Origin: Ignavibacteriota bacterium
GTDB lineage: Bacteria > Bacteroidota > Ignavibacteria > UBA10030
Length of the DNA stretch: 59,239 bases
Reading direction: 5' to 3'
Assembly: GCA_003142475.1 (NCBI GenBank)
Contig: PLMK01000020.1
Span: 1-59,239 of the forward strand
The number at the start of each line of letters is the position of its first letter. Position 1 is the stretch's first letter. The notes under the pieces were generated by a model. The model was not told the origin of the DNA. It saw only the letters and a list, made by a program, of their open reading frames with translations, and ran no database searches. The position numbers and the translations under genes were made by a program. Shown here piece after piece: positions 3,707 to 55,080 of the stretch.

Positions 3707-3730
3707 ATTGTATTTTATAAGGACGCTTCA

Positions 3731-8234: not shown

Positions 8235-8275
8235 CTTGGTGACAAACGGAGCCCATCTTCAAGTCGGATTCCACA

Positions 8276-12053: not shown

Positions 12054-12066
12054 TCTCTATCAATTA

Positions 12067-12249: not shown

Positions 12250-12274
12250 ACCTTCGATCCCTTTCTTGATACAA

Positions 12275-14377: not shown

Positions 14378-14408
14378 TTTTCTATCGTCCTTCTTTCTCG
14401 TGAGTACG

Positions 14409-16368: not shown

Positions 16369-16370
16369 GG

Positions 16371-16967: not shown

Positions 16968-17080
16968 TGTGGATTCCTCCAATTGTCATTTTGAATTTTT
17001 GTAACCGCCTCATCAATTAGAAGCGGAGTGATGATAAATTCTTGTTTCATAAAATTTCTATTCATTGTTGCGCTTCCAAT

Positions 17081-17272: not shown

Positions 17273-17306
17273 AAATGTATCCAAGGATATAACGTGCTGA
17301 CTGCTT

Positions 17307-17575
17307 TTAGTCTCTCAATTCTTTCTTTAACCAATCGGATATCAGTTCTGAACCGTAGGCTTTATAAGGGCGCTTGAGGTTGATAATGTAAATATTGTCA
17401 CCTGTACCGATATGTTTTTTCAGTTCTTCACACACAATGTCCGGTGTTTCATCCGTGATGATTGCATAGGAAGATTCTGAAAGTCGGACGTTAGAATAAC
17501 TATTAATTTTATCAAGTAGATTTGAATAATTCTGTCCGGTTTGTTCGGGTCGAATGTAACGAGAAGTAATGGCAT
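17307..17575 (-). pseudogene. Cas2-like (SinR-family-like) small protein, frameshifted
   Basis: Two overlapping frames together encode an 89-aa protein. From the ATG at 17575 one frame reads MPLLLVTFDPNKP. Around 17536-17539 the homology passes to the other frame, which reads GQNYSNLLDKINSYSNVRLS, later HIGTGDNIYIINL, and ends SDWLKKELRD at a TAA. Joined, this matches the small Cas2-fold proteins (YDLNKPGQNY-x-L pattern, then a strand, a helix and NDxIxVI) often labelled Cas2-like or SinR family. A single missing base in CCGG explains the break. No cas1 or CRISPR array is nearby. It may be a true pseudogene, a sequencing error, or less likely programmed frameshifting. Confidence 0.6.
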
Positions 17576-17742
17576 AATGTTCTTTCTCGAATGAGGATGT
17601 CAGTTGCTATTCTTTTTTGTTATTGCTCTCAATATATAGAGGCTGAAAAAAAATCAAAGTGGAATAAAAAAGGATGCTAAAAGTGTAAAAATAATATAAA
17701 AACAGTGAATCCTGACATATTAAACAAGTAGGAAAATGGAAC

Positions 17743-17757
17743 CCATCTTTAAGATGG
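17743..17757. repeat. Short palindrome after the GNAT gene
   Basis: CCATCTT-T-AAGATGG, a perfect 7-bp inverted repeat, lies just downstream of the minus-strand GNAT stop. It could be a weak terminator, but no clean T run follows. Confidence 0.35.
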
Positions 17758-17767
17758 ACGCCTTTCT

Positions 17768-18580
17768 CTATCCACAATAACCTGTCGCCCTATTATACAT
17801 CATTGCGGGTTGCCAATTTACTTTGTTCCCCAAGATCATACGGGGAGATGTGCGATACTCCTGAAAGCCTTCTGAAGTTAAAAATTCCCGAGCAATTGTA
17901 TTTGTTGCCGGAACAACCGCGGTTGTCTTACCGCGATTTAAACGCACCTTCATTAATTCTAACCCGGCAGCAGAATTACGCGCAATAATTAGTCCTCCAC
18001 CAAAATCAGGCAGAAAAAATCCTGATATACGGGCGAATGTGTCTGGTGCATAAATACAACCCGTTGAAAAAAACCTCTTAATGAATTGAAACCGATCTTC
18101 TCCTGTAACCTCTCTATCTAATTCTTTGATTATCAAAAAATCTTCCTCTCGCATTTCTCTCACATTTGAAATGTGCTGAGTTGGAACAATCGATTCCCTT
18201 TTATAAAACACATACGTCGAATTTATCTCAAAGCCAAGCTTTCTATAGACGGATTCACCCATTTCACTTGCAGTCAATAAATGGCTGGTGCATCCTTTAC
18301 TTCGACAATAGTCTATGAGATTAGTTGTAACTTTTTTCCCTATTCCTTGTCTTCGATATTCCGGTAATACAATTATTGTTCCAAGCCAGCTAATAGGAGC
18401 GTGCATGATGCCGATGCCGCAGCCAACAATCTTGCTATTCAATTCTGCTATCGCTGGGTAAAAATAAGAATGACCAAAGTGAAATGAGAATAATCTGGGT
18501 AGATCTAAATTCCAATCTTCAGGAGGAAAATTTTGTAATTGAGGTATTTCTGACTCTAATATTTCTCTAATTTTTAGCAT
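17768..18580 (-). CDS. Two-domain GNAT acetyltransferase
   Basis: About 270 aa. The N-terminal GNAT domain has the acetyl-CoA loop VLPEYRRQGIGKK near residues 75-87, followed by the typical GESVYRKLGF segment near 110-119. The second half (from about residue 140, REMREEDF onward) resembles the extra domain of YitH-like acetyltransferases and ends in an acceptor-site-like region. I took the ATG at 18580 (MLKIREILESEI); a TTG four codons upstream is possible. The substrate is unknown. It is a single gene, separated from rqcH by 46 bases. Confidence 0.8.
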   Translation of the reverse strand: MLKIREILESEIPQLQNFPPEDWNLDLPRLFSFHFGHSYFYPAIAELNSKIVGCGIGIMHAPISWLGTIIVLPEYRRQGIGKKVTTNLIDYCRSKGCTSHLLTASEMGESVYRKLGFEINSTYVFYKRESIVPTQHISNVREMREEDFLIIKELDREVTGEDRFQFIKRFFSTGCIYAPDTFARISGFFLPDFGGGLIIARNSAAGLELMKVRLNRGKTTAVVPATNTIAREFLTSEGFQEYRTSPRMILGNKVNWQPAMMYNRATGYCG

Positions 18581-31815: not shown

Positions 31816-33540
31816 TCAGAATGGCCTACAAAATCTTAGAATAAACTGCGCTGGTGCGGGATGATCGGTACGCCATGCAACACCTACACGGAACGAACCA
31901 CTCCGGTTCGAGAACGCGACGCCAAAGTCGTGCCTAAAATCGTTCAATTTGACTGCTTCAACTCCTTCCAATGCTGAAGCTGTTGGTAATGCAATCCGTG
32001 CAAAACCTGCATCTGACAGAATTAAAATATTAACATTGTGGAATATCCACATAGGCCAGAAATCTATTTCCTCAAGAAAACTGCCATTAACTATCAGTTC
32101 TGCATTGATGAGAAGCATACGATTACCTATTTCAGACTTGAAAGGAAAAGCATTCATCGTACCTAAACCGCCTAAATCAAACATTTTTTGCATTATACGA
32201 TCACCGGTTAAAGAACCTGCCCGCAGACGAATGTTAAAATTATTGTACTTCCCAAGAGGTTGAAAGCGACGCAGGTCAATTATGTACTGATCGAACTCAA
32301 ACTCACTGCCCCAATTTTTCTTCGCAAACTCGCCAGAAGCATACAAACTCCATCCTTCGGGTCCATGGCTTGTATTGGAAATCGTACTGACGCCACCGCT
32401 CGCGATTATACTGCGCATTTTACCTGGATCAATAGTAGGATTCAAGCGAAACTTTTTAGCGCCACCAAACAATGCCCAATCAACTTTATTTGTCAGTGAA
32501 TCGTACGTGTCTACCAAATATGCAATCTTCAACTCGTTTTTCAGATAATCATGTTTGGAATAATATGCTGCGTGTAATGTGTAGCCGTTCCGTTGAAAGT
32601 AATCGCGGAAATCTTCATGAATTAATAATGCCGCCGCGGTGTTTTCGTGTAGTGAGATAATCCATTTATCTTTCGTGTCAGTAAGACTGTATCCATCGGC
32701 ACCCAACTCAATAATGCCGCTTCCTTCATTTGTGAGGATTGCAAACTGCCGTGCCAATCCAAGATTGCCGCGCCACGTGTGCGACTTGAATCCCCATCCT
32801 ACTGAGCCGTTCATACTCCAATCTCGTTCTCCGTCCCAATAATATTTCTTTTCAGAACCAAGACCAAGGAAAACACCTTCAACTCGATTATACCGAAAAA
32901 TAAAATTATCTAAATTCATTTGCTCGTCAGACCATGGCACATCAAACGTGTGCTGGGTTCGTGAGAATTTACTGCGTGCTGGACGAAAGCTCGATTTTTC
33001 TTTTCTGGAATAATCTTCGAGCCCTTTAATGACCGCACCATCTTCTTTCAGAATACTCCCATTTACAACACGCGCGTTACCGGTAATCTTGCCTGTGCTT
33101 TTCATATGTAAATCGCCGCCTACCACCAGCACGTCGCCATTGACTGTACCATAAACAGTCAGATCGCCGCCTTTCACAACTATATTGTTGTTAATTGTAT
33201 CAGATTGTTCAATCACTTTGTTGCCGGAGAATGATTGCGCGTTGCTATCTATTTCGCTGTCGGTAATATTTGGTGATATATAAGATGTAGAATCAATAGT
33301 GTCGACTTCTGTAATTTGTTCATTATCGAAAGGTGAAGTCCATCGCTTGACTATATTATTAACCATATTATCGGTGTTGTTCCCGATATTATTGATTTCT
33401 TTACCAACTTTATCGGTTTCGTATCCAATGCGCTCGCTGACACCCTCATTGTTCGTTTTCTGCAGCTTTGATTGCGCGTTAGCAGAAAATAAAGGTAAAA
33501 TCAATCCAAGAGTAATGAGATATAGGATCAAGTTTTTCAT
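31816..33540 (-). CDS. Outer-membrane beta-barrel with bactofilin-like segment
   Basis: A 574-aa exported protein. It has a signal peptide (MKNLILYLITLGLILPLFSA, then NA), a low-complexity stretch rich in Asn, then a short beta-helix repeat (about residues 118-172, GGDLTVYGTVNGDVLVVGG) like polymer-forming bactofilin or DUF8173-type proteins. The rest is a beta-barrel with alternating strands, including LGGLGTMNAFPFKSEIGNRM, which is the typical BamA/surface-antigen barrel motif, and a C-terminal aromatic residue (FILRFCRPF). No POTRA domains are present. Its role is unknown; it may serve as an outer-membrane scaffold. It is divergent from pdxJ. Confidence 0.75.
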   Translation of the reverse strand: MKNLILYLITLGLILPLFSANAQSKLQKTNNEGVSERIGYETDKVGKEINNIGNNTDNMVNNIVKRWTSPFDNEQITEVDTIDSTSYISPNITDSEIDSNAQSFSGNKVIEQSDTINNNIVVKGGDLTVYGTVNGDVLVVGGDLHMKSTGKITGNARVVNGSILKEDGAVIKGLEDYSRKEKSSFRPARSKFSRTQHTFDVPWSDEQMNLDNFIFRYNRVEGVFLGLGSEKKYYWDGERDWSMNGSVGWGFKSHTWRGNLGLARQFAILTNEGSGIIELGADGYSLTDTKDKWIISLHENTAAALLIHEDFRDYFQRNGYTLHAAYYSKHDYLKNELKIAYLVDTYDSLTNKVDWALFGGAKKFRLNPTIDPGKMRSIIASGGVSTISNTSHGPEGWSLYASGEFAKKNWGSEFEFDQYIIDLRRFQPLGKYNNFNIRLRAGSLTGDRIMQKMFDLGGLGTMNAFPFKSEIGNRMLLINAELIVNGSFLEEIDFWPMWIFHNVNILILSDAGFARIALPTASALEGVEAVKLNDFRHDFGVAFSNRSGSFRVGVAWRTDHPAPAQFILRFCRPF

Positions 33541-33706
33541 GGGTTCACCATAGTGTTCTTAAGAAACGCTTCTTGCAATATTACGGCATAATAGAGTTGA
33601 AAGTTACAGAATTCTTTACATAAGATAGTTTGAGATCGGCTGATATTCAATTCTTTTACGAAAATGAGTATATTATACTGAACTTATATAATAGAGGATA
33701 AAAAAA

Positions 33707-34456
33707 ATGAGATTAGCTATAAACATCGACCACATAGCAACATTGCGCAATGCGCGCGGTGGAAGCGACCCAGATCCCGTGAAAGCGGCGCTTCTTTGCG
33801 AGGAAGCTGGCGCTGTTGGTATCGTATGTCATTTGCGCGAAGATCGGCGTCATATGAAGGATGATGACGTGCAGCGCCTCCGATCTACAATCAAGAAAAA
33901 GCTCGATCTTGAGATGGCAGCGACCGAAGAAATTATCGGTATTGCAATTAAAACAAAACCCGATCTCGTAACACTTGTGCCGGAACGGCGTCTGGAACTT
34001 ACAACTGAAGGCGGATTAGATGTAGTTGCGCAGAAGAAATATCTTGGTGAAGTTGTTAAGCAATTTAGGCAAAATAATATTCCAGTCAGCCTGTTCATTG
34101 ACCCCGCAGATGCTCAAGTGCGTGCATCAGCGGATATAGGGACTGATATGATTGAAATTCATACAGGCGAATATGCTGAAGCAAAAACCGAAAGCGAAGT
34201 GAGAGAACAATTCCAGCGAATTCAGGAAACCGCTAAATTTGGTAAATCGCTTAGGCTTGGTGTCAATGCTGGTCATGGATTAGATTATGATAACGTTGCT
34301 GCTGTTGCTGCTATTCGCGAAATTGATGAAATGAGCATCGGTCACGCCGTAATCGTACGCGCATTGTTCGTTGGGCTAGAACAGGCTGTGCGGGAAATGA
34401 TACATTTAGTTGAAGGAAAAACAAACCAAGTAAGACGGCAGGTAGAAGAAGAATAG
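33707..34456 (+). CDS. pdxJ: Pyridoxine 5'-phosphate synthase
   Basis: Makes pyridoxine 5'-phosphate from deoxyxylulose 5-phosphate and 3-amino-1-hydroxyacetone phosphate in the DXP-dependent B6 pathway, 249 aa. Family motifs INIDHIATLRNARGG, HLREDRRHM, LVPERRLELTTEGGLD and NAGHGLDY are in place, including the catalytic histidine and glutamates. GAGG stands before the ATG. No other B6 genes are in the window. Confidence 0.97.
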   Translation: MRLAINIDHIATLRNARGGSDPDPVKAALLCEEAGAVGIVCHLREDRRHMKDDDVQRLRSTIKKKLDLEMAATEEIIGIAIKTKPDLVTLVPERRLELTTEGGLDVVAQKKYLGEVVKQFRQNNIPVSLFIDPADAQVRASADIGTDMIEIHTGEYAEAKTESEVREQFQRIQETAKFGKSLRLGVNAGHGLDYDNVAAVAAIREIDEMSIGHAVIVRALFVGLEQAVREMIHLVEGKTNQVRRQVEEE

Positions 34457-34527
34457 GAGAGTAAAAATTTCATCAACGTAAAATTAAGCTGTTATTGCAC
34501 ACACTTGCTAAACATGTAGTCACATAT

Positions 34528-35514
34528 CTATACTTTCATCGCCTCGTCTAATACGCGCTGGTTCTTTAATCCTTCTTCAGTGGGTATCGGCGATTCGGTA
34601 TTGTTAAGAATACATTCCGAGAAAAGCGTCACTTCCTTCTCGTACAGATTGGGAACGACAATTATTTCTTCCTGTGTTTCTGCTGCCGTGCCATTTTTCC
34701 CCAGTACAATCGTTAACGGAAGGGTCAAATTGCTCAACGTAAAGTTTTCTGCGGAAAGAATACCTTCTTGTCCTATTACTTCAATAATTGATCTACGGAA
34801 TGATGCTACAAAAGAACAATAGACACTTGCCGGCGTTCCTTGTGAAAACTTCAGCGCCAAAAGCGAGGTTTGTTCGGTCGTGGTCTCTGTTGGTATTGGC
34901 GCAAGCTGACTCTTTACTGAGACAACATCATCATCCAATAAAAAACGGATTGTATCTAAACAATGGATGCCAATATCGAAAGTTGCCCCGCCACCGGCAG
35001 TTTTTTTATCATGCAGCCACCGCCGTTTTGAAAGACGCGCATCATACATGTATTCTGTTTTTACAAACGCTACCTTGCCAATGGCTCCGGAGTGAATCAA
35101 TTCTTTCATACGAACAATAAGGGGAGAGAGGCGAACCATTTGCCCAACCATGAGTTTAACATTCTTGCTGCGGCAGACTTCGATCATTTGCTTAGCTTCT
35201 GCAGTATTCATCGCCATCGGTTTTTCAACTAACACATGCTTGCCAGCGAGTGCGGCTGTGATGGTGTCCTGCGCATGTTGGACTACTGCGGAAGCGACAA
35301 ACACTGCGTCAATATCCGGATGATTTACTAATTTTTCTGCAGAATCAAACGCTAGCGGAACATGAAAGTCACGTGCTTTTTCCACAGCGGCAGTAAGCGA
35401 ACGCTTCTGAAGCGCAAACAATTCCGAGTTTGATGATGATTGAATTGCAGGAGCAATGGTGCGTTCCGCAAAGTTACCGAAGCCAAGGATACCGTAACGA
35501 ACTTTTCGTGCCAT
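34528..35514 (-). CDS. Gfo/Idh/MocA-family oxidoreductase
   Basis: A NAD(P)-dependent sugar-type dehydrogenase, 328 aa. The Rossmann motif GILGFGNFAERTIAP is at residues 7-21, the conserved EKPMAMN lysine motif near 95-101, and the C-terminal barrel with GGATFDIGIHCLDTIRF holds the catalytic-type D/H pair. I chose ATG 35514 (MARKVRYGILGFG), preceded by GGAGAAAG; twenty upstream codons are in frame but unlike the family. The substrate is not identifiable. It is convergent with pdxJ. Confidence 0.9.
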   Translation of the reverse strand: MARKVRYGILGFGNFAERTIAPAIQSSSNSELFALQKRSLTAAVEKARDFHVPLAFDSAEKLVNHPDIDAVFVASAVVQHAQDTITAALAGKHVLVEKPMAMNTAEAKQMIEVCRSKNVKLMVGQMVRLSPLIVRMKELIHSGAIGKVAFVKTEYMYDARLSKRRWLHDKKTAGGGATFDIGIHCLDTIRFLLDDDVVSVKSQLAPIPTETTTEQTSLLALKFSQGTPASVYCSFVASFRRSIIEVIGQEGILSAENFTLSNLTLPLTIVLGKNGTAAETQEEIIVVPNLYEKEVTLFSECILNNTESPIPTEEGLKNQRVLDEAMKV

Positions 35515-35576
35515 CTCTTTCTCCGTAAAAGGATTACCTGAATTGAAAATACTGAAGAATGCTCGTGAACTCAAAT

Positions 35577-35713
35577 AATATAATAGAGACCTCTGAAATA
35601 TTAATGAAATAACGGTAGACGCGAACTTTAGTTCGCGAGAATAATTAAAAAACGAAATCTGAAAAATGCGACTACCTTATTAAAACCGATATTTCAAAGG
35701 TCTCTATATAATA
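35577..35713. mobile_element. MITE-like imperfect hairpin element
   Basis: An approximately 137-base non-coding element made of nested inverted repeats. The outer arms AGAGACCTCTGAAATAT (35585-35601) and ATATTTCAAAGGTCTCT (35689-35705) match at 16 of 17 positions. An inner arm around GGTAGACGC (35614-35622) pairs with GCGACTACC (35668-35676). A perfect 7-bp palindrome, CGCGAAC-TTTA-GTTCGCG (35620-35637), lies near the left inner arm. It encodes nothing. Such a structure fits a MITE or a REP/BIME-like hairpin, 330 bases upstream of hdrC. Confidence 0.55.
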
Positions 35714-36042
35714 AATATTTTGGTGTAAATATTCATTAATAAAGATTTATTAATTTTAATTGTTCGAATTATTCCGTATCTTTACTTCATAAAATGTTGT
35801 AGTAAAATTGGAATATCTTGATTAAGAACAAAGAATAGGAAATTTTAATACTTCTTTAGTAAAAAAAGTGATGGGAATCAGTTATAAAGATTTAAAGCAT
35901 GTCGTTTGTAGATTGATTTTTTAGATGCTCATTCTTAAATATTAGATTCTAACTTTCTGAAGATTGATAGAATCTGACATTTCTTTCCCGCCAAAGTATT
36001 ATCCTACGGTAATTCCATTTTCTACAAAAAATAGGAATTATT
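35714..36042. promoter_or_regulatory. Upstream region of the hdr-flx operon with candidate operator
   Basis: This AT-rich stretch has no gene. A perfect inverted repeat, AGATTCTA at 35944-35951 and TAGAATCT at 35968-35975 with a 16-base spacer, lies about 70 bases before hdrC, a plausible binding site for a dimeric regulator. The remaining sequence shows no convincing promoter elements and only very short ORFs. Confidence 0.35.
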
Positions 36043-36609
36043 ATGTCTGTAAGTATAGACTTCGGTGGGGATTCTCTTGCCGGATGGATACAACATAAGT
36101 CCGGAATATCTGTCCAGCGGTGTTATCAGTGTGGTAAATGCTCTGCAGGATGTCCGGCAAGCAGCGATATGGATTTTGCCCCAAGTGTTCTTCTGCGCCT
36201 GCTTCAATTACAGAACGCTGAATCCGATCAGAAAGTACTAAGCAGCTATTCCATTTGGCTCTGCCTCACTTGTCATACCTGTAGTGCACGTTGTCCAATG
36301 GAAGTTGACCTTCCAAAAGTAATGGATGTTCTCAGAGCAGAATCACTCCGTCACAAGTTGGTCAATAAGCGTGCTAAAGATATTGTAGCATTCCATAAAT
36401 CATTTATTGATACTATTCGCAATTTTGGACGATTGTGGGAAGTTGGTCTTGTTGCCGATTACAAACTCCGCACGCGCCATTTCTGGCAAGACGTCGTTGT
36501 AGCTCCTGTTATGTTGAAAAAAGGAAAATTGTCTTTGATTCCTTTGTTTCATAAAAAGTTTGTCAGTCGCATTTTTTCCGGTCTGCGCAACAGAGAGGAG
36601 CGCGCATAG
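36043..36609 (+). CDS. hdrC: Heterodisulfide reductase subunit C
   Basis: A 188-aa Fe-S electron carrier with two [4Fe-4S] motifs: C27, C30, C33, C37 (CYQCGKCSAGCP) and C74, C77, C80, C84 (CLTCHTCSARCP). In the soluble complex HdrC passes electrons from HdrA to HdrB. It is the first gene of a seven-gene operon; its stop codon overlaps the GTG start of hdrB. The C-terminal about 100 residues are basic and helical. Confidence 0.93.
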   Translation: MSVSIDFGGDSLAGWIQHKSGISVQRCYQCGKCSAGCPASSDMDFAPSVLLRLLQLQNAESDQKVLSSYSIWLCLTCHTCSARCPMEVDLPKVMDVLRAESLRHKLVNKRAKDIVAFHKSFIDTIRNFGRLWEVGLVADYKLRTRHFWQDVVVAPVMLKKGKLSLIPLFHKKFVSRIFSGLRNREERA

Positions 36610-37508
36610 TGAAAATAGGTTTATATCCTGGATGTTCATTAGAAGGCTCTTCCCGTGAATATGCCGAGTCTCTTCGTGCCATTGCTCCGCATCTTGGTTT
36701 GGAATTGGAAGAGATAGAAGGTTGGAATTGCTGCGGTGCAAGTTCAGCTCATCAGCTTGATCATACATTGTCGCTGGCATTACCGGCGCGTATTTTAGCG
36801 CAAGCTGAGAAACAAAAATTTCCTGAGTTGCTGGTTCCATGTGCGGCTTGCTACAATCGACTTGCTTCCACAAAAAAAGATCTAGCTAATGATGCGTCAA
36901 CGCGCGACAAAGTTACGGATCTAATAAACATGCCTTACACTGGCGTTACGTCAGTACAGAATATTTTAGAAGTACTAAATCTTGTTCTTACGCCGGATGT
37001 TCAAAAAAAAATACCCGCGGCATTCCCTCATAAAGTAGTTTGTTATTACGGATGTTTGCTTGTGCGTCCTGCGAGTGTTGTTCATGCGGAGAAAATGGAA
37101 GACCCGATGCAAATGGATGATTTAATGAAACGCATTGGCGCAACACCTTTAGATTGGGGAATGAAAACAGAATGCTGCGGTGCAAGTTTGTCCATTACTC
37201 GCACCGATATCGTTGGAAAATTATGCGGCAATATATTGGAAGATGCAACAATGCGCGGCGCGGAAGCAATTATTGTTGCATGCCCTATGTGCCATTCAAA
37301 TCTTGATATGCGCCGGAAAGAAATTGAACGCGTTACAGGAAAGAAGTTTTCTATCCCCATCGTTTATATTACACAAGCGATTGGAATGGCGCTTGGTTTA
37401 GATGCAAAGAGTTTGGGTTTGCATCGGCATTTTGTAGAAGTCTCAGTTCACGGAAAAAACAAAGTTCAGCAAAACGTATCGTCGCCTTCAATGGCAGCGG
37501 TATCATAA
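36609..37508 (+). CDS. hdrB: Heterodisulfide reductase subunit B
   Basis: The catalytic subunit for disulfide reduction, 299 aa. Both CCG motifs that hold non-cubane [4Fe-4S] clusters are complete: C9, C41, C42, C78, C81 and C149, C189, C190, C225, C228. It starts at a GTG that shares its first base with the TAG of hdrC, so translation is coupled. The C-terminal tail (about 30 residues) is variable. Outside methanogens the physiological disulfide acceptor is not settled, so the substrate is open here. Confidence 0.93.
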   Translation: MKIGLYPGCSLEGSSREYAESLRAIAPHLGLELEEIEGWNCCGASSAHQLDHTLSLALPARILAQAEKQKFPELLVPCAACYNRLASTKKDLANDASTRDKVTDLINMPYTGVTSVQNILEVLNLVLTPDVQKKIPAAFPHKVVCYYGCLLVRPASVVHAEKMEDPMQMDDLMKRIGATPLDWGMKTECCGASLSITRTDIVGKLCGNILEDATMRGAEAIIVACPMCHSNLDMRRKEIERVTGKKFSIPIVYITQAIGMALGLDAKSLGLHRHFVEVSVHGKNKVQQNVSSPSMAAVS

Positions 37509-37524
37509 TAAATAGAGTTTATCG

Positions 37525-39522
37525 ATGTCACGTATCGGAGTATTTATCTGTCATTGCGGTGAAAACATCAGCGCAACGGTGGATTGTGAAAAAGTAGCGA
37601 AGACGCTCGCGTCTATGCCGGGAGTAGCGCACAGTGTTGATTATAAATATATGTGCTCCGACCCGGGGCAAAGTCTTATTCGTAGCGCAATCAAAGAAAA
37701 AAAACTTACAGGTGTTGTAGTCGCTGCGTGTTCTCCTCGTATGCACGAACCTACATTCCGCAAAGCTTGCGCGGAAGCAAGATTAAATCCGTTCTTGTGC
37801 GAAATGGCAAATCTTCGTGAACATTGCTCATGGGTTCATGCCAAGGGCGATGCAACGACAGATAAAGCTATCGATCTGGTTTCGATGTTGGTTGAAAAAG
37901 TGAAACGGAATAAACCGCTGTTTCCGATTAAAGTTCCTGTCACAAAAACTGCATTGGTCATTGGCGGCGGCATTGCAGGCATTCAAGCCGCGCTTGATAT
38001 TGCAAACGCTGGACAGAAAGTAGTTTTAGTAGAACGCGAACCGTCTATCGGCGGGCATATGTCGCAGCTTTCGGAAACATTCCCTACGCTTGATTGCTCG
38101 CAATGTATATTAACGCCGCGCATGGTAGAAGTTGCACAGAATCCAAATATCACTCTCTACACTTACGCAGAAGTAGAAAGTCTTTCAGGATTTATCGGGA
38201 ACTTTACGGCACGCATTCGAAAAAAAGCAAAGAGTGTTGATGAAAAACTTTGCACCGGCTGCGGTGAATGTGCAACGGCATGTCCTATCAAAAAAATTCC
38301 AAGTGAATTCAATACTGGACTCGGCATGCGCGGGGCAATTTATGTTCCATTCCCGCAGGCTGTTCCGAACAAACCAGTCATTGACCGCTCGCGCTGTACA
38401 TATTTTAAATCCGGAAAATGCAAATTTTGTGCATCAAAATGTCCTGCGCAAGCAATTCGTTTCGATCAACAAGATGAAATTATTGAAATACCGATTGGTT
38501 CTGTTGTTGTTACGACTGGTTTCAATATTAAGGAAACATCATTCTTTCCTGAATATGGTTATGGAAAGTATAAAGATGTTGTTACTGGATTGCAATTTGA
38601 ACGATTGCTTTCTGCATCGGGGCCGACACTTGGTGAAGTTAAACGCCCGTCCGATGGAACAGTGCCTAAAAAAATTGTTTTTGTTGCATGTACAGGCTCG
38701 CGCGATCCAGCGAAAGGCATAGAGTATTGTTCCAAAATTTGCTGCATGTACACGGCAAAGCATGCAATGCTATACAAACACAAGGTGCATGACGGCGATG
38801 CTTATGTGTTTTACATGGATATACGTGCGGCAGGAAAAGGATACGATGAGTTTTTTCGCCGGGCGATTGAAGAAGACCATGTGAATTATATTCGCGGGCG
38901 TATTTCGCGTATATATGAGCGTAATGGAAAATTGATCGTGCGCGGGGCAGATACTTTACTTGGTGCCCAGCAGGTAGAAATTGAAGCCGATATGGTAGTA
39001 CTTGCCACTGCCGCCGTAGCAAATGACGGAGCAGAATCCCTGGCGCAAAAATTACATGTCAGTTACGATGCACATCATTTCTTTGCTGAAGCTCATCCGA
39101 AATTACGCCCGGTGGAAACAAACACAGCAGGAATTTTCCTCGCAGGGGCATGTCAATCACCAAAAGATATTCCCGAAACCGTCAGTCAGGCATCTGCTGC
39201 GGCAAGTAAAGTAATCGGATTATTTTCTAATGCAGAATTGACGCGGGAACCGATAATTGCAGTTGTGAATCGTACTGCGCCGCCTTTGTTTTCAACTTGT
39301 GTAGGCTGCTTTATGTGCCAGTCTGCCTGTCCGTATCACGCAATTGAACAAGAAGAAATAAAAACGCGCGAAGGCAAATTGATTAAGATGGTCGCCAAAG
39401 TCAACCCAGGATTGTGTCAGGGGTGCGGGACTTGTGTAGCTTTTTGCAGATCAAAATCAATCGATCTACAGGGTTACAGCAATGAGCAAGTTTATGCTGA
39501 AGTGATGGAATTGTTGAGTTAA
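37525..39522 (+). CDS. hdrA: Heterodisulfide reductase subunit A, flavin-bifurcating core
   Basis: A 665-aa FAD and Fe-S protein. The N-terminal domain has cysteines at 9, 11, 44 and 69 region, the FAD loop GGGIAG is at 147-152, and a CSQC pair is at 191-194. Two inserted ferredoxin clusters follow (C243/C246/C249/C253 and C291/C299/C302/C306), and two more at the C-terminus (CVGCFMCQSACP and CQGCGTCVAFC). This is the full architecture of HdrA, the subunit in which flavin-based bifurcation takes place. No fused MvhD or thioredoxin-reductase extra domain is seen; MvhD is the next gene, one base away. Confidence 0.95.
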   Translation: MSRIGVFICHCGENISATVDCEKVAKTLASMPGVAHSVDYKYMCSDPGQSLIRSAIKEKKLTGVVVAACSPRMHEPTFRKACAEARLNPFLCEMANLREHCSWVHAKGDATTDKAIDLVSMLVEKVKRNKPLFPIKVPVTKTALVIGGGIAGIQAALDIANAGQKVVLVEREPSIGGHMSQLSETFPTLDCSQCILTPRMVEVAQNPNITLYTYAEVESLSGFIGNFTARIRKKAKSVDEKLCTGCGECATACPIKKIPSEFNTGLGMRGAIYVPFPQAVPNKPVIDRSRCTYFKSGKCKFCASKCPAQAIRFDQQDEIIEIPIGSVVVTTGFNIKETSFFPEYGYGKYKDVVTGLQFERLLSASGPTLGEVKRPSDGTVPKKIVFVACTGSRDPAKGIEYCSKICCMYTAKHAMLYKHKVHDGDAYVFYMDIRAAGKGYDEFFRRAIEEDHVNYIRGRISRIYERNGKLIVRGADTLLGAQQVEIEADMVVLATAAVANDGAESLAQKLHVSYDAHHFFAEAHPKLRPVETNTAGIFLAGACQSPKDIPETVSQASAAASKVIGLFSNAELTREPIIAVVNRTAPPLFSTCVGCFMCQSACPYHAIEQEEIKTREGKLIKMVAKVNPGLCQGCGTCVAFCRSKSIDLQGYSNEQVYAEVMELLS

Positions 39523-39523
39523 T

Positions 39524-39961
39524 ATGGAAAATAATTTTGAACCAAAAATAGTAGCCTTTGTATGCAACTGGTGCACGTATGCTGGTGCAGACTTGACGGG
39601 GACAAGCAGAATCAAATATGCGACAAACGTGCGCATCATCAGATTTCCATGTACCGGGCGCATAGATTACAATTTACTGCTTAAAGCGTTTGCCCAAGGT
39701 GCCGACGGTGTGATTGTTTCCGGTTGTCATCCTAATGACTGTCATTACACTTCTGGAAATTTCCATGCACGCCGACGCTGGATAGTATTTAAACAAATGA
39801 TGGAGTATATGGGAATAGACATGCGCCGTGTAAAATTTTCCTGGGTATCAGCGGCCGAAGGAGCAAAGTGGGCGGATATAGTAAACACGACTGTAAATGA
39901 AATCCGTGAACTCGGTCCCTCACAGGAATATTTAGAAATGTCCCGGCAAGGAGTTGCTTAA
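39524..39961 (+). CDS. MvhD/FlxD-type iron-sulfur subunit
   Basis: A 145-aa protein of the MvhD family, a small [2Fe-2S] protein that links an electron-input module to HdrA. Conserved cysteines C14, C17, C43, C68 and C73 lie in VCNWCTYAGAD, FPCTGRID and SGCHPNDCHY. It begins one base after the hdrA stop. In hydrogenase-linked systems the partner is MvhAG, but here the following genes are Flx-like, so FlxD is the better name. Confidence 0.92.
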   Translation: MENNFEPKIVAFVCNWCTYAGADLTGTSRIKYATNVRIIRFPCTGRIDYNLLLKAFAQGADGVIVSGCHPNDCHYTSGNFHARRRWIVFKQMMEYMGIDMRRVKFSWVSAAEGAKWADIVNTTVNEIRELGPSQEYLEMSRQGVA

Positions 39962-40019
39962 GAATATTATTATAATGGCAGAACAACATTCTGTCAAAGT
40001 TTTTATTTGAGAGAAAAGA

Positions 40020-40820
40020 ATGCAAGCGTTACATCAAAAAGCTAAAGAGCTGTTAGAATCTGGAAAAGTTCAGGTAATCATTGGATATGGCGATGGCAGC
40101 GGTGATCGTGTCCGTCCCGTTTTTATCAGCAAAGCAGAGAGCGCTTCTGATTTAATTTGGGATGATCGGTGCAGGCAAAATTTAGCTGTGTATCTGAACA
40201 AACCTGAAATCAAAAAACTTGGAGTACCGGCTATAGTTGCGACACCGGTTGTTGTGAAAACCATTATTCAATTGATTTCTGAGAATCAGTTGAAGAGCAG
40301 TAATATTGTTGTGCTGGTTGTAGATAATGATGTTGTTTCTGAATTAACAGACAATGCTTCACTGGAAGCATATTCTGCAGGTCATCCGGTAGTATTTCCG
40401 CCTTTCGTTGTCAAAGAGATAAAAGACATTGCTGAGATGTCTATACAGCAGCGGAATAAGTATTGGCAGGATGAACTTTCTCGCTGCTTCAAATGCTATG
40501 CATGTCGTGCGGCGTGTCCGTTATGCTATTGTGAGCGGTGCCTCACAGATAACAATCAACCGCAATGGGTCTGTGTAGCTTCACATGCACAAGGAAATTT
40601 TGAGTGGCACATAAATCGTGCAATGCATCTTGCGGGGCGTTGTGTTGAATGTGGTTCATGCACTATCGCATGCCCTGTCGGCATTCCTATCGGTTTGCTT
40701 ACTATAGAAGCATCACGAATAGTAAAACAGGAATTCGGGCAGGAACCGGGATTGCATTGCGACGCAGATTCGGCAATGTCATCGTTCAAAGTTGAAGATA
40801 CGGAAACGTTTATAAAATGA
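40020..40820 (+). CDS. FlxC-like 4Fe-4S dicluster protein
   Basis: A 266-aa iron-sulfur protein. The N-terminal about 150 residues form a Rossmann-like region without a clear cofactor motif. The C-terminal part holds a cysteine-rich array: C156, C159, C162, C166, then C169, C171, C174, and a second 4Fe-4S set C208, C211, C214, C218. It matches the iron-sulfur relay subunit of FlxABCD-type complexes by order and size. Its stop overlaps the next ATG (ATGA). Confidence 0.8.
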   Translation: MQALHQKAKELLESGKVQVIIGYGDGSGDRVRPVFISKAESASDLIWDDRCRQNLAVYLNKPEIKKLGVPAIVATPVVVKTIIQLISENQLKSSNIVVLVVDNDVVSELTDNASLEAYSAGHPVVFPPFVVKEIKDIAEMSIQQRNKYWQDELSRCFKCYACRAACPLCYCERCLTDNNQPQWVCVASHAQGNFEWHINRAMHLAGRCVECGSCTIACPVGIPIGLLTIEASRIVKQEFGQEPGLHCDADSAMSSFKVEDTETFIK

Positions 40821-41845
40821 GCATGCAACAAAGAGTCATACAACATGAAAATTTATTAAAGTTTCTTGGCGAAATCATTTCGTCCGGTAAACAGCTTTAT
40901 GCTCCACAAAAGAAGGCAGAAAAAACATATTTTCTACCTGCAAGCGATGTGCATTCTATTGTATTCGATTATATTCAGACGGCCGAATCACCGAAAGAAT
41001 TATTGTTTCCTAAAACGGAAAGAATGCTTTCGTACGAACAAGTAGATGGCAAATTAAAGATGATCGACCATGCAGAAGGCGAAATATTTCCAGAAAGAGT
41101 ATTGTTTGGTTCACATCCCTGCGATGCGGTTGCATTAAAGACACTTACGGATTTTTTTCGCCATGATGTTCCTGATGCTTTCACTCAAAAACGTCAAGAT
41201 TCCTTGACTGTGATCAGCGTAAGTTGCATCAAAGCGGACGATAATTGCTTTTGCACTTCTGTCGGGACTTCGCCCGGCGATACAGAGGGCAGCGATATAT
41301 TGCTGACACCTATAGGGAATGCAAAATATTATGTCGAAGTGATGACAGAAAAAGGACAGTCATTATTTGCAGCGCATGAAAAATATTTTGAAAATAGTGA
41401 TATAATATCCAAAGATAAATATCTAACAAAAATGAGCGAAGTATTTTCTTCTAGTGAAGTTACTGCACGTCTATCGAAAGCATTCGATCATCCAATATGG
41501 AGCGATGCATCGTTGAGATGTTTAGGATGCGGCGCTTGTGCTTATGTCTGTCCGGTTTGTTCCTGTTTTGATATTCAGGATGAGGGAACAGACAAGAAGG
41601 GTGATCGACTACGGTGCTGGGATTCGTGTGGTTTTTCATTATTTACACTGCACACATCTGGGCACAATCCTCGCAAGAATCAAAGCGACCGCTGGCGGCA
41701 ACGTGTCATGCATAAGTTTTCGTATATGCCTGAGCGATACGAACTGCTTGGCTGCGTCGGCTGCGGCAGATGTTCCCGCGCTTGTCCAGCAGATATGAAT
41801 ATCAAAGAACAGCTAAAAGAAATCACAGAAAAAATAGAAGGTTGA
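40817..41845 (+). CDS. FlxB-like 4Fe-4S subunit (AsrA / hydrogenase beta-like)
   Basis: A 342-aa protein of the anaerobic sulfite reductase A / sulfhydrogenase beta family. The N-terminal half has HPCDAVALKTL and the CFCTSVG segment (cysteines 137, 144, 146), and two 4Fe-4S clusters follow: C235/C238/C241/C245 and C313/C316/C319/C323. It relays electrons between the flavin subunit and the Hdr part. It overlaps the previous gene by four bases. AsrC or a hydrogenase large subunit is absent, which favours the Flx assignment. Confidence 0.85.
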   Translation: MSMQQRVIQHENLLKFLGEIISSGKQLYAPQKKAEKTYFLPASDVHSIVFDYIQTAESPKELLFPKTERMLSYEQVDGKLKMIDHAEGEIFPERVLFGSHPCDAVALKTLTDFFRHDVPDAFTQKRQDSLTVISVSCIKADDNCFCTSVGTSPGDTEGSDILLTPIGNAKYYVEVMTEKGQSLFAAHEKYFENSDIISKDKYLTKMSEVFSSSEVTARLSKAFDHPIWSDASLRCLGCGACAYVCPVCSCFDIQDEGTDKKGDRLRCWDSCGFSLFTLHTSGHNPRKNQSDRWRQRVMHKFSYMPERYELLGCVGCGRCSRACPADMNIKEQLKEITEKIEG

Positions 41846-41861
41846 AGACCGCCGGAAATTT

Positions 41862-42701
41862 ATGAGTTCGAGTAATATATATAAACCGTATCTAATGCAA
41901 ATAGAGAAAGTCATCGACGAAGCTCCCGGCGTGAAAACTTTTCGGCTTAGGTTTACTAACGATGCCGATAAAGAACAATTTAATTTTACGACCGGACAGT
42001 TTGGCGAGTACTCGGTTTTCGGTGAAGGAGAATCGACATTCTGTATTGCATCATCACCGACGAGGAAAGATTATATCGAATGCACATTCAGACAAGCCGG
42101 ACGGGTCACTTCAGCGTTGGCTCAGAAAGAAGAAGGTGATGTGATCGGTTTCCGCGGACCATATGGAAATATCTTTCCGTTGGAAGAATGGTATGGAAAG
42201 AATCTCTTGTTTATCGCTGGTGGTATTGCACTTCCGCCTCTTCGTAGTGTGATTTGGAATGTGCTTGATCTACGTGATAAATTTAACGATGTGACTATCT
42301 TATATGGTGCTCGTTCTGTTGCAGATCTTGTGTACAAACAAGAATTGGACGAATGGGGAAAGCGTTCAGATGTAAAACTTGTTACTACTGTCGATCCGGG
42401 CGGAGAAACGCCAGACTGGAAAGGCAAAGTTGGTTTCGTGCCTTCAGTGCTTGATTGGATGGAACCGTCAAGCGAAAATACAATTGCGATAGTCTGCGGT
42501 CCACCTGTGATGATCAAATTTACGTTTCCAGAGCTGCTGAAACTCGGTTTTACACCAGATACTATTTTCACAACGCTCGAAAACAGAATGAAGTGCGGTG
42601 TGGGTAAGTGTGGTCGTTGCAATGTTGGCAAAGTTTATGTTTGCAAAGACGGTCCGGTGTTTACGTACAAGCAGCTTCAGGAATTACCGGCGGAGTATTA
42701 G
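41862..42701 (+). CDS. FlxA-like NAD(P)H-FAD oxidoreductase subunit
   Basis: A 279-aa ferredoxin-NADP reductase-fold protein of the AsrB / sulfhydrogenase gamma type. The FAD-binding domain is followed by the nucleotide domain with LLFIAGGIALPPLRS, VTILYGARS and VCGPPVMI. A C-terminal [2Fe-2S] site carries C245, C250, C253, C261 (KCGVGKCGRCNVG). It would take electrons from NADH or NADPH and feed them to the Fe-S chain. It is last in the operon and is closed by a strong terminator. Confidence 0.9.
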   Translation: MSSSNIYKPYLMQIEKVIDEAPGVKTFRLRFTNDADKEQFNFTTGQFGEYSVFGEGESTFCIASSPTRKDYIECTFRQAGRVTSALAQKEEGDVIGFRGPYGNIFPLEEWYGKNLLFIAGGIALPPLRSVIWNVLDLRDKFNDVTILYGARSVADLVYKQELDEWGKRSDVKLVTTVDPGGETPDWKGKVGFVPSVLDWMEPSSENTIAIVCGPPVMIKFTFPELLKLGFTPDTIFTTLENRMKCGVGKCGRCNVGKVYVCKDGPVFTYKQLQELPAEY

Positions 42702-42729
42702 AAATAAATTTCAAGGCAATGTGTACACG

Positions 42730-42752
42730 GGCGATCTTTGATCGCCTTTTTT
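42730..42752 (+). terminator. Terminator of the hdr-flx operon
   Basis: GGCGATC-TTT-GATCGCC forms a perfect 7-bp stem with a 3-base loop and is followed by TTTTTT. It lies 28 bases after the FlxA-like gene. Confidence 0.9.
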
Positions 42753-42774
42753 ATAAAAACAATTATACCTGCTT

Positions 42775-43359
42775 ATGAAAATAATTGAAGTGCCTGAATA
42801 TATCAAAGGGTTAATATTTGATTGCGATGGAACGTTGGTAGATTCAATGCCTCTGCATATGAAAGCATGGGAACATGCAATCACGCAAGCAGGCGGAGTA
42901 TGGAATTATGATTTTATATTTTCTAAGAAAGGGATGCAAGGCAAAGACATTCTTGCATTATATAATAAATCTTTTGGATTTGATCTGGATGTGGAATATA
43001 CGGCACGCGTAAAACAAGAATATTTCCACAAGCATTGCGCGGAGATGAAGCCGATAGATACTGTCGTGGACATTGTGCACCAATACGCATCACGGCTTCC
43101 CATGGCGATTGCTTCCGGTGGTTCGCGAGAAAATGTATTGCTCTCTTTAAAATTGATTGGGATCGAAGAATACTTTGCTACTATTATTACGGCTGACGAT
43201 AAAGATGTTCAGCCGAAACCATCGCCGGAAATATTTTTAGAAGCCGCAAAACGAATTAATGTTGATCCGAAGTTATGCCAAGTTTTTGAAGATGGAGATA
43301 TTGGGTTGGAAGCGGCACGCAATGCAGGCATGTTAGGAACTGATATCCGTGAGCTGTAA
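42775..43359 (+). CDS. HAD-family phosphatase, beta-phosphoglucomutase-like
   Basis: A 194-aa HAD hydrolase of subfamily IA. Motif I is GLIFDCDGTLVDSMP near residues 12-26, motif II is the serine in AIASGGSREN, and motif III-IV spans PKPSPEIFLEA and FEDGDIGLEAARNAG. The cap is small and helical. The class includes sugar-phosphate phosphatases and mutases; the YqaB-like form is plausible. It begins 22 bases after the operon terminator, so it has its own promoter. Confidence 0.9.
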   Translation: MKIIEVPEYIKGLIFDCDGTLVDSMPLHMKAWEHAITQAGGVWNYDFIFSKKGMQGKDILALYNKSFGFDLDVEYTARVKQEYFHKHCAEMKPIDTVVDIVHQYASRLPMAIASGGSRENVLLSLKLIGIEEYFATIITADDKDVQPKPSPEIFLEAAKRINVDPKLCQVFEDGDIGLEAARNAGMLGTDIREL

Positions 43360-43566
43360 GAACAACGTTACGTACTAAATTATTACCGGATCGAACATAA
43401 CCATAGTCTACATTTCTATTCTCTTATGAGCGGCGAACTTTGTACTCACTTAACTTTTAATTTGTAACTGAATTGTTGCATATGTTCAGCATCCGCCTTG
43501 AATTTTCTTTTCCTTCTTCGCTTCTTTTAACTCCTTGTAATTCTTAAAGTGAGATCGTCTTTATAT

Positions 43567-43597
43567 AAAAATCGGCAGCCCGAACAAGCGCTGCCGA
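43567..43597 (-). terminator. Terminator of the secreted hypothetical gene
   Basis: TCGGCAGC and GCTGCCGA form an 8-bp stem with a 10-base loop. On the minus strand the stem is followed by TTTTT. It lies 30 bases after the 169-aa gene. Confidence 0.8.
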
Positions 43598-43627
43598 AGA
43601 ATAAACAAGAACGTTGAATAGTTTAAG

Positions 43628-44137
43628 CTACCATTTTCCATTTTTGATAATAATCGCTGCGATCTTTTTGAGCTGTTCCTGCGTAAGAATCGGTTTCATA
43701 CCTTGTGCAACATCGATTGAGGTCGAGATTGTTATCCAGTGCGTTCCCTGTCGCACAGAAAGAATAAATGGGTCCATCTTGGGTGGACCGTCGTACGCTT
43801 CGTCACCGATTTCCTTCACCGGACCGTTAAACGCACTCTTGAACGAACTCGATGCTTTGGTTTTCGCAAACTCTTTCAGATCGACAGTTTCAAATACGAC
43901 ACTCAAGATCCTTTTTCCGTCCGGCTTAACAAAATTCAGATCACCAATCATTCGTTTGCTTGGATCTTTTGGAACCATCTTGAGACCCTGGATTCCTGTT
44001 ACTTTTACCACATCGGCAATAGACAACAATTTATCATTCGGTGGATCTGCGGCAAACACATGGACACCAGAAATGCTTGTGATAAATATTGCCAGCAACC
44101 ATGCCACGGCGAAATTGATGAATGTAGGTCTCTTCAT
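43628..44137 (-). CDS. Secreted hypothetical protein (169 aa)
   Basis: No family recognised. The signal peptide MKRPTFINFAVAWLLAIFIT continues to HVFA and is followed by a mature part starting ADPPNDKLLSIADV. That part contains a helix-strand region, a segment GDEAYDGPPKMDPFILSVRQ and a strand HWITIST, a pattern that recalls small periplasmic proteins with a DUF3558-like fold, but the link is weak. It is flanked by its own terminator, and nothing nearby suggests a pathway. Confidence 0.7.
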   Translation of the reverse strand: MKRPTFINFAVAWLLAIFITSISGVHVFAADPPNDKLLSIADVVKVTGIQGLKMVPKDPSKRMIGDLNFVKPDGKRILSVVFETVDLKEFAKTKASSSFKSAFNGPVKEIGDEAYDGPPKMDPFILSVRQGTHWITISTSIDVAQGMKPILTQEQLKKIAAIIIKNGKW

Positions 44138-44384
44138 AACGCCTCTCTTAATTAATGAATTTTTTTAGTGATGGTATAAGAAAATTATAATCTTGAACTA
44201 TCATAGACAAATAAAATCTATCATTAATGCAATGCAAAAACAATCGAATTCTTAGGAATATCTATTGATATGTAAAAAGGGCAATAACTTTCGTCCAACC
44301 TTGGACGGGATTATCTCTTACCGCTGGCCGTTCGTTTGTCTGTTTGACTGTCTTCACATTAAAAATTATATTGAAAAAGATGTT

Positions 44385-44456
<72 letters not shown>

Positions 44457-44546
44457 CACCGAGCATGGTAGTCCTTGCATTAAAAGTGATGTAGTAATCA
44501 CTAGTCCGAAATCCATACATTCATCAACAAACCAAAAGGAGAAATT

Positions 44547-44945
44547 ATGAAAAAAGTTCTTATTGGCGCTGTTGTTGTATTTGTGATTTTAGAAGTGCTG
44601 GATTTTCTTATCCATGGTGTTATCCTTGCCCCTGCCTATGCAGCCACAAAAGACATCTGGCGTTCCGATATGATGGATAAGATGTGGATCATGTATATTG
44701 TAACAATTGTGGTTTCATTTTTCTTCGCATTGATCTTTTCAAAGGGGTATGAAGGAAAAGGGGTCATAGAAGGCGTTCGTTATGGCCTCTATGTCGGAGT
44801 GATGATAGGCATTGGTATGGCCTACGGCACATATGCAATGATTGCCATTCCATATTCGCTTGCAGTGCAATGGTTTATCTTTGCGGTGTTCGAATACACC
44901 ATTGCCGGCGTCGGACTGTCGCTGGTGTATGGGAAGAGAAAATAA
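44547..44945 (+). CDS. Small four-helix membrane protein
   Basis: A 132-aa integral membrane protein with four predicted helices (about residues 3-25, 46-66, 78-96 and 104-126) and a basic C-terminus (GKRK). AAAGGAG precedes the ATG. I recognise no named family; it has the look of DUF1761-like or similar small membrane proteins. A conserved-looking FSKGYEGKG loop links helices 2 and 3. It is a monocistron with its own terminator. Confidence 0.75.
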   Translation: MKKVLIGAVVVFVILEVLDFLIHGVILAPAYAATKDIWRSDMMDKMWIMYIVTIVVSFFFALIFSKGYEGKGVIEGVRYGLYVGVMIGIGMAYGTYAMIAIPYSLAVQWFIFAVFEYTIAGVGLSLVYGKRK

Positions 44946-44991
44946 ACACAAGTTTAACTTGAAATACTCATATCAATAAACGTACAACTCT

Positions 44992-45017
44992 TGCCTGGTT
45001 TTCCTCCGGGCATTTTT
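44992..45017 (+). terminator. Terminator after the small membrane protein
   Basis: TGCCTGG and CCGGGCA form a 7-bp stem with one G-U pair and a 7-base loop, followed by TTTTT. Confidence 0.75.
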
Positions 45018-53913: not shown

Positions 53914-55080
53914 TTAACTGCTGAGTTCCTTTTCTAATTTCCGATACACTTCTGCAAGCGGCAGATTTTTTTCTACAGCGATGCGTTTGCATTCTTCAAA
54001 TTCTACCCGCAGCTGTTCCTTACCATCGACATTAATAACTTTAGCGGAAACAGTACCGAAAGATGTTTGTACCGGTTTTGTGCTGCGCGGAAGTTTTTTG
54101 CGTTCGATCGATTGAATGCGCACACCGAGTGTAGTTGTTTCGCGGAAGATAATATTGAGAATCCGATCAATTTTTGCGCGTTCGACGAGCGCTGAAAGAA
54201 TAATACCGGGACGACCTTTCTTCATCAAGATCGGAATCATATATGCATCGTATGCGCCGGCGGAAAAAAGCTTCTCGATGACGTACGGATAAATTTCTGG
54301 GTTCATGTTATCAATGTTTGTTTCAATACTTACGATTTCATCGCCGAGATAATTCGGTTCCAAATTACCAATGAACACGCGAAGTAAATTCGGCAATTGT
54401 TCAATTTCACGTCCGCCAGCGCCATACCCGATGGCAGAGATCTGTATCTTTTCTGTCGTTAAAACGCCTTGCGAAAGCGCTTTAATGATAGCGGCTCCGG
54501 TTGGTGTCGTCAATTCAAATGGAACATCAGTCAGCAGAATTGGATAATCTTTTAAGATTTCCATCGTTGCCGGTGTCGGCACTGGAAGAGCACCGTGTTG
54601 AGATTTCACAATACCGCCGTTGCCAACCTTTATCGGAGATGAATAGACAGCTTGAATGCCCAATTTTTCTAAACAAATAGAAACGCCGACAATATCAACC
54701 AAAGAATCAATGGCGCCGACTTCATGAAAGTGTACTTTTTCGATGGCAGTGCTATGAACTTTTGATTCGGCATGTGCAACTTCTCTGAAAATCTTCTTTG
54801 ACCATTCTTTGACATTTTGAGTGAGAGAACTTCTCTCAATCAGTTCTTCTATGTCTTTCATATGCCGATTGTAATGCGGCTGCTCTGAGATAACGACATC
54901 CACTTTTGTAGCAACCATACCGTTGCGCTCAATATGCCGCGCTTGGAGTTCGAATCCGCCAATGCCGAGTACTTGAAGTTCTTTATTTAATTCATCGAAT
55001 GGAACGCCAGCACTGACGAGTGCCCCTAACGTCATATCTCCACTGATGCCGGCAATAGTATCGAAATAAGCTATTTTCAT
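53914..55080 (-). CDS. larC: LarC-type nickel insertion protein
   Basis: A 388-aa protein of the LarC family, which inserts nickel into the pyridinium dinucleotide cofactor of lactate racemase and related enzymes. The N-terminus YFDTIAGISGDMTLGALVSA and the stretch KVHFHEVGAIDSLVDIVG are family hallmarks, and the ETNIDNMNPE segment of the C-terminal half is intact. Unlike Lactobacillus larC, it is one uninterrupted frame with no programmed frameshift. larA, larB and larE are not in the window. Confidence 0.9.
   Translation of the reverse strand: MKIAYFDTIAGISGDMTLGALVSAGVPFDELNKELQVLGIGGFELQARHIERNGMVATKVDVVISEQPHYNRHMKDIEELIERSSLTQNVKEWSKKIFREVAHAESKVHSTAIEKVHFHEVGAIDSLVDIVGVSICLEKLGIQAVYSSPIKVGNGGIVKSQHGALPVPTPATMEILKDYPILLTDVPFELTTPTGAAIIKALSQGVLTTEKIQISAIGYGAGGREIEQLPNLLRVFIGNLEPNYLGDEIVSIETNIDNMNPEIYPYVIEKLFSAGAYDAYMIPILMKKGRPGIILSALVERAKIDRILNIIFRETTTLGVRIQSIERKKLPRSTKPVQTSFGTVSAKVINVDGKEQLRVEFEECKRIAVEKNLPLAEVYRKLEKELSS

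Follow-up and report, generated by a model that had tools for sequence, protein, structure and literature searches.

The FlxABCD-HdrABC (Flx-Hdr) system is among the presumed routes by which anaerobes use NADH to produce ferredoxin of low potential. In the methanogen complex MvhADG-HdrABC, the input is a [NiFe] hydrogenase and the disulfide substrate is CoM-S-S-CoB. The Flx-Hdr of Desulfovibrio vulgaris Hildenborough (DVU_2399-2404), as described in passages of PMC10920352, contains FlxC and FlxD as one protein (FlxCD, DVU_2401), is followed by the next locus tag with an iron alcohol dehydrogenase (DVU_2405), and is proposed to be a bifurcating enzyme, with NADH as the electron source and with ferredoxin and, in all likelihood, the partner DsrC as acceptors. 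The hdrCBA-flxDCBA cluster of Bilophila wadsworthia is co-expressed with the isethionate microcompartment according to a passage of PMC12125255. Here we analyzed a block of seven genes at positions 36043-42701 of a 59,239-nucleotide stretch (contig PLMK01000020.1 of assembly GCA_003142475.1, an Ignavibacteriota bacterium), the whole of which is referred to as the window. By description, the block carries the same subunit names (FlxA-D, HdrA-C) as the D. vulgaris system and the same written order as the B. wadsworthia cluster; unlike in D. vulgaris, flxC and flxD are separate genes.

The seven-gene block and its cofactor ligands

Within its host genome (3.58 Mb, 81 contigs, 98.98% complete), the window corresponds to contig C29. 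All seven open reading frames (ORFs) of the block are on the plus strand in the order hdrC-hdrB-hdrA-mvhD(flxD)-flxC-flxB-flxA and either overlap or are separated by no more than 58 bases. The predicted electron-transfer subunit HdrC (36043-36609, 188 amino acids (aa)) carries two [4Fe-4S] clusters by its matches to TIGR03290 (5.4e-18) and Fer4_8/Fer4_17. HdrB (36609-37508, 299 aa), the putative disulfide-reducing subunit with two CCG motifs, matched PF02754 in two stretches as well as NF042965 (173.9 bits), TIGR03288 (136 bits) and chain 5odc_B (5.6e-32). HdrA (37525-39522, 665 aa), the FAD and ferredoxin-domain subunit and presumed site of bifurcation, matched NF040770 (8.2e-236) and 5odc_A (7.7e-207), the latter aligned across residues 3-660. 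The predicted adaptor between the input module and HdrA, MvhD or FlxD (39524-39961, 145 aa), matched PF02662 (1e-51) and 7bkb_F (5.6e-48). FlxB (40817-41845, 342 aa) is a sulfhydrogenase-beta-like iron-sulfur (FeS) protein (NF040833, 1.5e-52; PF17179; 9nez_B, 1.2e-45), and FlxA (41862-42701, 279 aa) is a predicted FAD/NAD(P)H/[2Fe-2S] dehydrogenase subunit (PRK08345, 6.1e-77; NAD-binding PF00175; DHODB [2Fe-2S] domain PF10418; 9nez_C, 1.3e-61), whose Pfam FAD domain PF00970 scored 20.9, just below the cut-off of 21.1. For FlxC (40020-40820, 266 aa) the family evidence is weak, with matches to 4Fe-4S (dicluster) models only (best 2.2e-6), and this [4Fe-4S] protein was named by its conserved position and by tblastn to relatives. 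All seven proteins stayed below every listed NCBIfam cut-off (for HdrA, those of the best 25 of 93 families).

HdrA, HdrB and MvhD match chains of solved HdrABC complexes (5odc, 7bkb, 8rvu) over most of their length. The corresponding chains of the methanogen complex (5odc) are homologous to those of the window, while FlxABC takes the input place here. Similarly, the beta and gamma subunits of sulfhydrogenase 1 (9nez) are homologous to FlxB and FlxA, but the window locus is without hydrogenase subunits. With HdrA, HdrB with two CCG motifs, HdrC, MvhD/FlxD, FlxA, FlxB and FlxC all present in a co-oriented block of the usual order, the locus is, at the level of its sequence, a complete, intact and correctly named Flx-Hdr operon-like block, ordinary and of a kind already known.

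To compare cofactor ligands, cysteines were counted with the window row included and the outgroup rows L039 and L054 excluded; L050 and L139 represent one record. In HdrB, all ten cysteines of the CCG motifs (C9, C41, C42, C78, C81, C149, C189, C190, C225 and C228) were conserved in 82/82 rows and the four [2Fe-2S] cysteines of FlxA in 71/71, while the five cysteines of MvhD were found in 79 or 80 of 80 rows and those of the HdrA ferredoxin domains in 89 to 92 of 92. Lys412 of HdrA was conserved in all 92 rows and aligns with a lysine that lies close to the flavin in 5odc HdrA. Compared with its nearest relative (L077), the window showed a nonsynonymous rate (dN) of 0.046-0.185 per gene; the synonymous rate (dS) was 1.7-3.9 for five genes, the other two giving no defined value. 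That dN lies far below dS indicates purifying selection on the operon.

A preliminary description of this DNA had named a complete seven-gene HdrABC-FlxABCD set with intact cofactor motifs in a bacterium of the Fibrobacteres-Chlorobi-Bacteroidetes (FCB) group, with NADH as the predicted electron source and no alcohol dehydrogenase gene attached. The ORFs and family matches bear out the set, no key cysteine was lost, the host belongs to the Ignavibacteria, and no alcohol dehydrogenase gene is present at the locus. An NAD(P)H-type input through FlxA is likewise indicated by the PRK08345, PF00175 and PF10418 matches.

Gene order among related loci

The same description had presented the gene order as special, namely as the mirror image of that in Desulfovibrio. 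A search for HdrA in genome contigs confirmed at least 577 places, of which the best 80 named loci were retained; repeated matches to one gene were counted once, and no Desulfovibrio was among the 80. In 56 of these loci, from many phyla, the genes followed the order hdrC-hdrB-hdrA-mvhD-flxC-flxB-flxA on one strand, with one gap of 1.5-2.6 kb in three loci and gaps of at most 0.6 kb in the others. In the remaining 24, partial sets kept this sequence, with gaps of 1.9-2.3 kb in three loci. Contig ends truncate many of the 24, but some, such as L087, L099, L111 and L123, seem to have room for unfound genes. As the best 80 of at least 577 window-type HdrA matches were used, this count holds for near relatives. 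Ten of the 12 loci from the same class were complete in this order, one was cut off (L053) and one was rearranged (L052). An hdrCBA-flxDCBA cluster across many phyla is also attributed to Ramos et al. in a passage of PMC6103483, and the Bilophila cluster is written this way too in that of PMC12125255. Together with the 56 of the best 80 loci, these accounts rule out the mirror-image order as a novelty. The naming in D. vulgaris tracks the locus tags, from FlxA (DVU_2399) to HdrC (DVU_2404), in the passages of PMC10920352. Not one of the best 80 loci had the opposite transcribed order. The D. vulgaris flx-hdr genes are presumably encoded by the minus strand, in which case their transcribed order would be identical.

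Several Bacteroidota loci (Bacteroides oleiciplenus, Alistipes, Dysgonomonas and Segatella; L081, L090, L091 and L093) share the seven genes and their order with the window. Their HdrA is 75-79% identical to that of the window and falls in one clade with it in the HdrA tree, whereas similarity is lower for HdrB, HdrC, FlxB and FlxC (43-55%). Among the incomplete loci, that of Candidatus Azobacteroides (L099) contained HdrA, with the other six genes unmatched in 18 kb; L087 had hdrCBA, and the following 8 kb gave no match to mvhD or flx; and that of Trichlorobacter thiogenes (L123, genome G155) had six of the seven genes, FlxA being unmatched in the 4.9 kb after HdrA. In the rearranged locus L052 (G031:C49:10000-27900; 1-11135), hdrA, mvhD-flxC, flxB and flxA are interleaved with hdrC, hdrB and genes of the 2-oxoacid:ferredoxin oxidoreductase type. 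MvhD and FlxC are fused in this locus, and its layout resembles the arrangement linked to the reductive tricarboxylic acid cycle that is described in a passage of PMC6315080.

Electron flow, disulfide partner and other Hdr sets

Based on these gene identities, the locus probably encodes a cytoplasmic FlxABCD-HdrABC complex that is fed by NAD(P)H and bifurcates to ferredoxin and a disulfide. The FAD of FlxA would accept hydride from NAD(P)H, and electrons would pass through its [2Fe-2S] cluster, the clusters of FlxB and FlxC, and MvhD to the FAD of HdrA. HdrA would split each electron pair, sending one electron via its ferredoxin domains to ferredoxin and the other via HdrC to HdrB, whose CCG clusters would reduce the disulfide. 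The subunits, the cofactor ligands, the conserved order and the selection on the genes are read from the sequences themselves; from knowledge of the family we infer the preference for NADH, the bifurcation, its direction, the formation of the complex and the path of the electrons. Three POR_N matches were found in the host genome, which therefore probably uses ferredoxin.

Some points weigh against this assignment. The two sulfhydrogenase models that match FlxA and FlxB are named NADPH-dependent in one case and NAD(P)-dependent in the other, and the search of the host genome did not find DsrC, which serves as acceptor in the D. vulgaris model. Run in reverse, the complex would form NADH from reduced ferredoxin and a dithiol. 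That it works mainly in this way, as a confurcating NAD+ reductase supplied with reduced ferredoxin from 2-oxoacid oxidation, is conceivable but less probable: the POR_N-type 2-oxoacid:ferredoxin oxidoreductase genes of the host could supply it, and the published D. vulgaris model includes the confurcating direction during fermentation (passages of PMC10920352), but no sequence feature fixes a direction.

DsrC is the only partner that we met as interacting with Flx-Hdr in passages of the literature, where a citing passage in PMC10504309 states this interaction for the D. vulgaris protein. A search with PF04358 that detects Escherichia coli DsrC did not find it in the host genome, nor in ten of 12 further Flx-Hdr genomes picked from the 80 loci (completeness unstated). 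These ten included Bacteroides oleiciplenus YIT 12058, an Alistipes, Dysgonomonas sp. HGC4 and a Segatella, while DsrC was present in Geobacter sp. AOG1 and a Chlorobiales bin. DsrC was not found in the T. thiogenes genome G155. Judged by gene content, the disulfide partner here cannot be DsrC unless its gene sits in the approximately 1% by which the genome falls short of completeness. Flx-Hdr without DsrC has already been noted for Syntrophomonas BUT1, for which a passage of PMC6687939 proposes an unknown carrier, and other Ignavibacteria/Chlorobi-group bins with sulfate-reduction genes carry dsrC according to a passage of PMC6338057. An otherwise ordinary locus thereby sharpens the question of the disulfide partner where DsrC is not found, as in the host and ten of the 12 further genomes. 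The DsrC-negative isolates B. oleiciplenus YIT 12058 and Dysgonomonas sp. HGC4 would be simpler places to seek this disulfide than an Ignavibacterium bin.

To search for a partner by neighborhood, ORFs of 92 loci and the window were compared all against all. No extra neighbor family occurred in more than 9/93 loci, with ORFs chosen by length so that real genes may be hidden. The two largest extra clusters (9/93 and 7/93) start with L045 ORFs antisense to core genes, and the next clusters (6/93 each) look from their letters like a histidine kinase, an ABC ATPase, an aminotransferase and an antisense frame; all were rejected. The genes accompanying Flx-Hdr in L052, L131, L142, L150 and L156 were set aside as a feature of a sub-lineage. 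In contrast to D. vulgaris with its neighboring iron alcohol dehydrogenase, the host genome has no such enzyme above the curated cut-off, one match lying below it (zinc enzymes were outside this search), and none beside the operon.

Instead of a free disulfide, the high-potential acceptor could be an enzyme fed by HdrBC such as thiol:fumarate reductase (TfrAB). The top score of the window HdrB was to NF042965, a subunit of 8-methylmenaquinol:fumarate reductase; L052, from the same-class genome G031, has its Flx-Hdr genes among 2-oxoacid:ferredoxin oxidoreductase-type genes, an FeS protein and an FAD_binding_2 flavoprotein; and a passage of PMC6315080 reports korABCD and tfrAB genes scattered among those of flxABCD-hdrABC, with a single complex as the suggested product. 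We nevertheless consider such an acceptor quite improbable for the window, whose locus is without TfrAB-type or 2-oxoacid oxidoreductase genes. The L052 FeS protein had no match in the host genome at 1e-5 (in a search without a positive control), and FlxA and HdrA of L052 are only 51% and 57-58% identical to those of the window.

Besides the partner, it is of interest that the host genome contains three Hdr sets in different surroundings: two further HdrABC-MvhD sets were found on contigs C9 and C68. On C9 (L039, G000:C9:1-19000; 1718-14455), hdrCBA-mvhD is followed by an Oxidored_q6 protein and the large and small subunits of a NiFe-hydrogenase, and this contig also carries a second, sulfhydrogenase-like NiFe set with adjoining FlxA- and FlxB-like genes. 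The set on C68 (L040, G000:C68:15000-33000; 3763-17860) consists of hdrC, hdrB, a gene for a 1489-aa HdrA-like protein and mvhD, and sits among glutamate-synthase-like, methylenetetrahydrofolate (MTHF) reductase and DUF5981 genes. A third NiFe large subunit is encoded on contig C52. The preliminary description had considered an input enzyme elsewhere in the genome that replaces FlxA; a hydrogenase-linked HdrABC-MvhD does exist on C9, but it is a separate set and the intact FlxA is not replaced. A hydrogenase-linked HdrABC of another Ignavibacteriae genome is described in a passage of PMC7509429. It seems rather unlikely that the three HdrABC-MvhD modules (NAD(P)H-, hydrogenase- and MTHF-reductase/glutamate-synthase-like-fed) share one disulfide or disulfide-bearing protein as carrier; if they did, this carrier would be a high-potential redox hub of FCB-group anaerobes with a role like that of CoM-S-S-CoB in methanogens. 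On C9, positions 15560-18336 of L039 encode a histidine kinase together with a response regulator of the sigma-54 type.

Origin of the operon and its flanks

Some HdrA match at 1e-30 was present in 48 of the 149 genomes surveyed in the class, and a near-full-length match of at least 58% identity in 13, the host included. A limited search of the literature, mostly of titles, recognized no description of Flx-Hdr in Ignavibacteria, and we do not claim that it is unreported. The phylogeny of HdrA and FlxA, which had been suggested as a check, places the window apart from the main Ignavibacteria set and beside Bacteroidota rows. In the HdrA tree (93 rows; a quick method with support from the Shimodaira-Hasegawa-like approximate likelihood ratio test (SH-aLRT) only), the window joins L077, G062, G007 and G018 in a group (99) that is nested in a clade of 30 rows (100), 22 of which are labelled Bacteroidota. 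All remaining Ignavibacteria rows apart from L052, which has a long branch, form a separate 12-row clade (100). A single clade for 17 rows of both sets was rejected (delta lnL 127.7; approximately unbiased test, p-AU 4.7e-7); these rows were chosen after the tree was seen, include L136, which is titled Bacteroidetes and placed among them, and omit L052. The two sets were also apart in the FlxA tree (72 rows), with weaker joins: bootstrap values of 81-86% joined the window set to Bacteroidota rows, and the main Ignavibacteria set did not itself form a single clade.

The same-genus genome G033 (RpoB 97.6% identical) has no window-type HdrA, yet keeps the 3' neighbors of the operon on its contig C15 and the 5' neighbors on contig C6. 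An origin by lateral transfer, which fits this gene distribution and phylogeny, or else by an old duplication with loss, is likely. Between the host and G007/G018, RpoB is 64.7-65.9% and HdrA 83.9-86.3% identical. Among six main-clade genomes, however, HdrA is likewise more conserved than RpoB in 15/15 pairs, the difference being 1.0-18.8 points, so that recent within-class transfer was dropped as a conclusion from identity alone and this argument is not relied on; the pair G007-G018 is opposite (RpoB 90.6, HdrA 85.1). The mostly-Bacteroidota HdrA type and its absence from the search of G033 could also point to a recently acquired, unused or decaying import. This is highly improbable, as reading frames and ligands are all intact, dN against L077 is far below dS, G+C and its third-position value (GC3) resemble the surroundings, with no step in composition at the operon, and the 3' side is syntenic with G033.

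A terminator-like hairpin of 8 pairs (5 G-C) with a T run lies directly 3' of flxA (42729-42747, plus strand). The terminator consensus scan gave 16 sites in 8.2 kb with 7.2 expected, so the match alone is weak, but its position after flxA supports it. Gene spacing and this hairpin give the block an operon-like layout that would suit a single transcription unit. Upstream, a Gfo/Idh/MocA-family gene is on the other strand, and the A+T-rich region 5' of hdrC (35575-36042, plus strand) holds an element of about 135 bp and a promoter-like site. The site (35974-36002) is a 10-of-12 match and not above chance, the promoter scan having given 16 sites with 18.8 expected. The element (35577-35711) has imperfect inverted arms of 40 nucleotides and begins where the alignment with contig C6 of G033 stops; seven related sites (73-91%) were found in G033 and G149, while in the host genome it matched only itself at 1e-5. 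The sole Rfam match at gathering threshold in 33000-45000 was a tRNA at 44385. Beyond the hairpin, a gene for a haloacid dehalogenase (HAD)-type hydrolase starts at 42775. Just 5' of the HAD gene in G033 (L163, G033:C15:50500-70400), an ORF at 11953-12618 resembles, by its letters, a microcompartment shell protein. Elsewhere in the window, positions 8971-16298 and 53917-55080 encode Kdp potassium uptake proteins (KdpA, E1-E2 ATPase and KdpD) and a nickel insertion (PF01969) protein.

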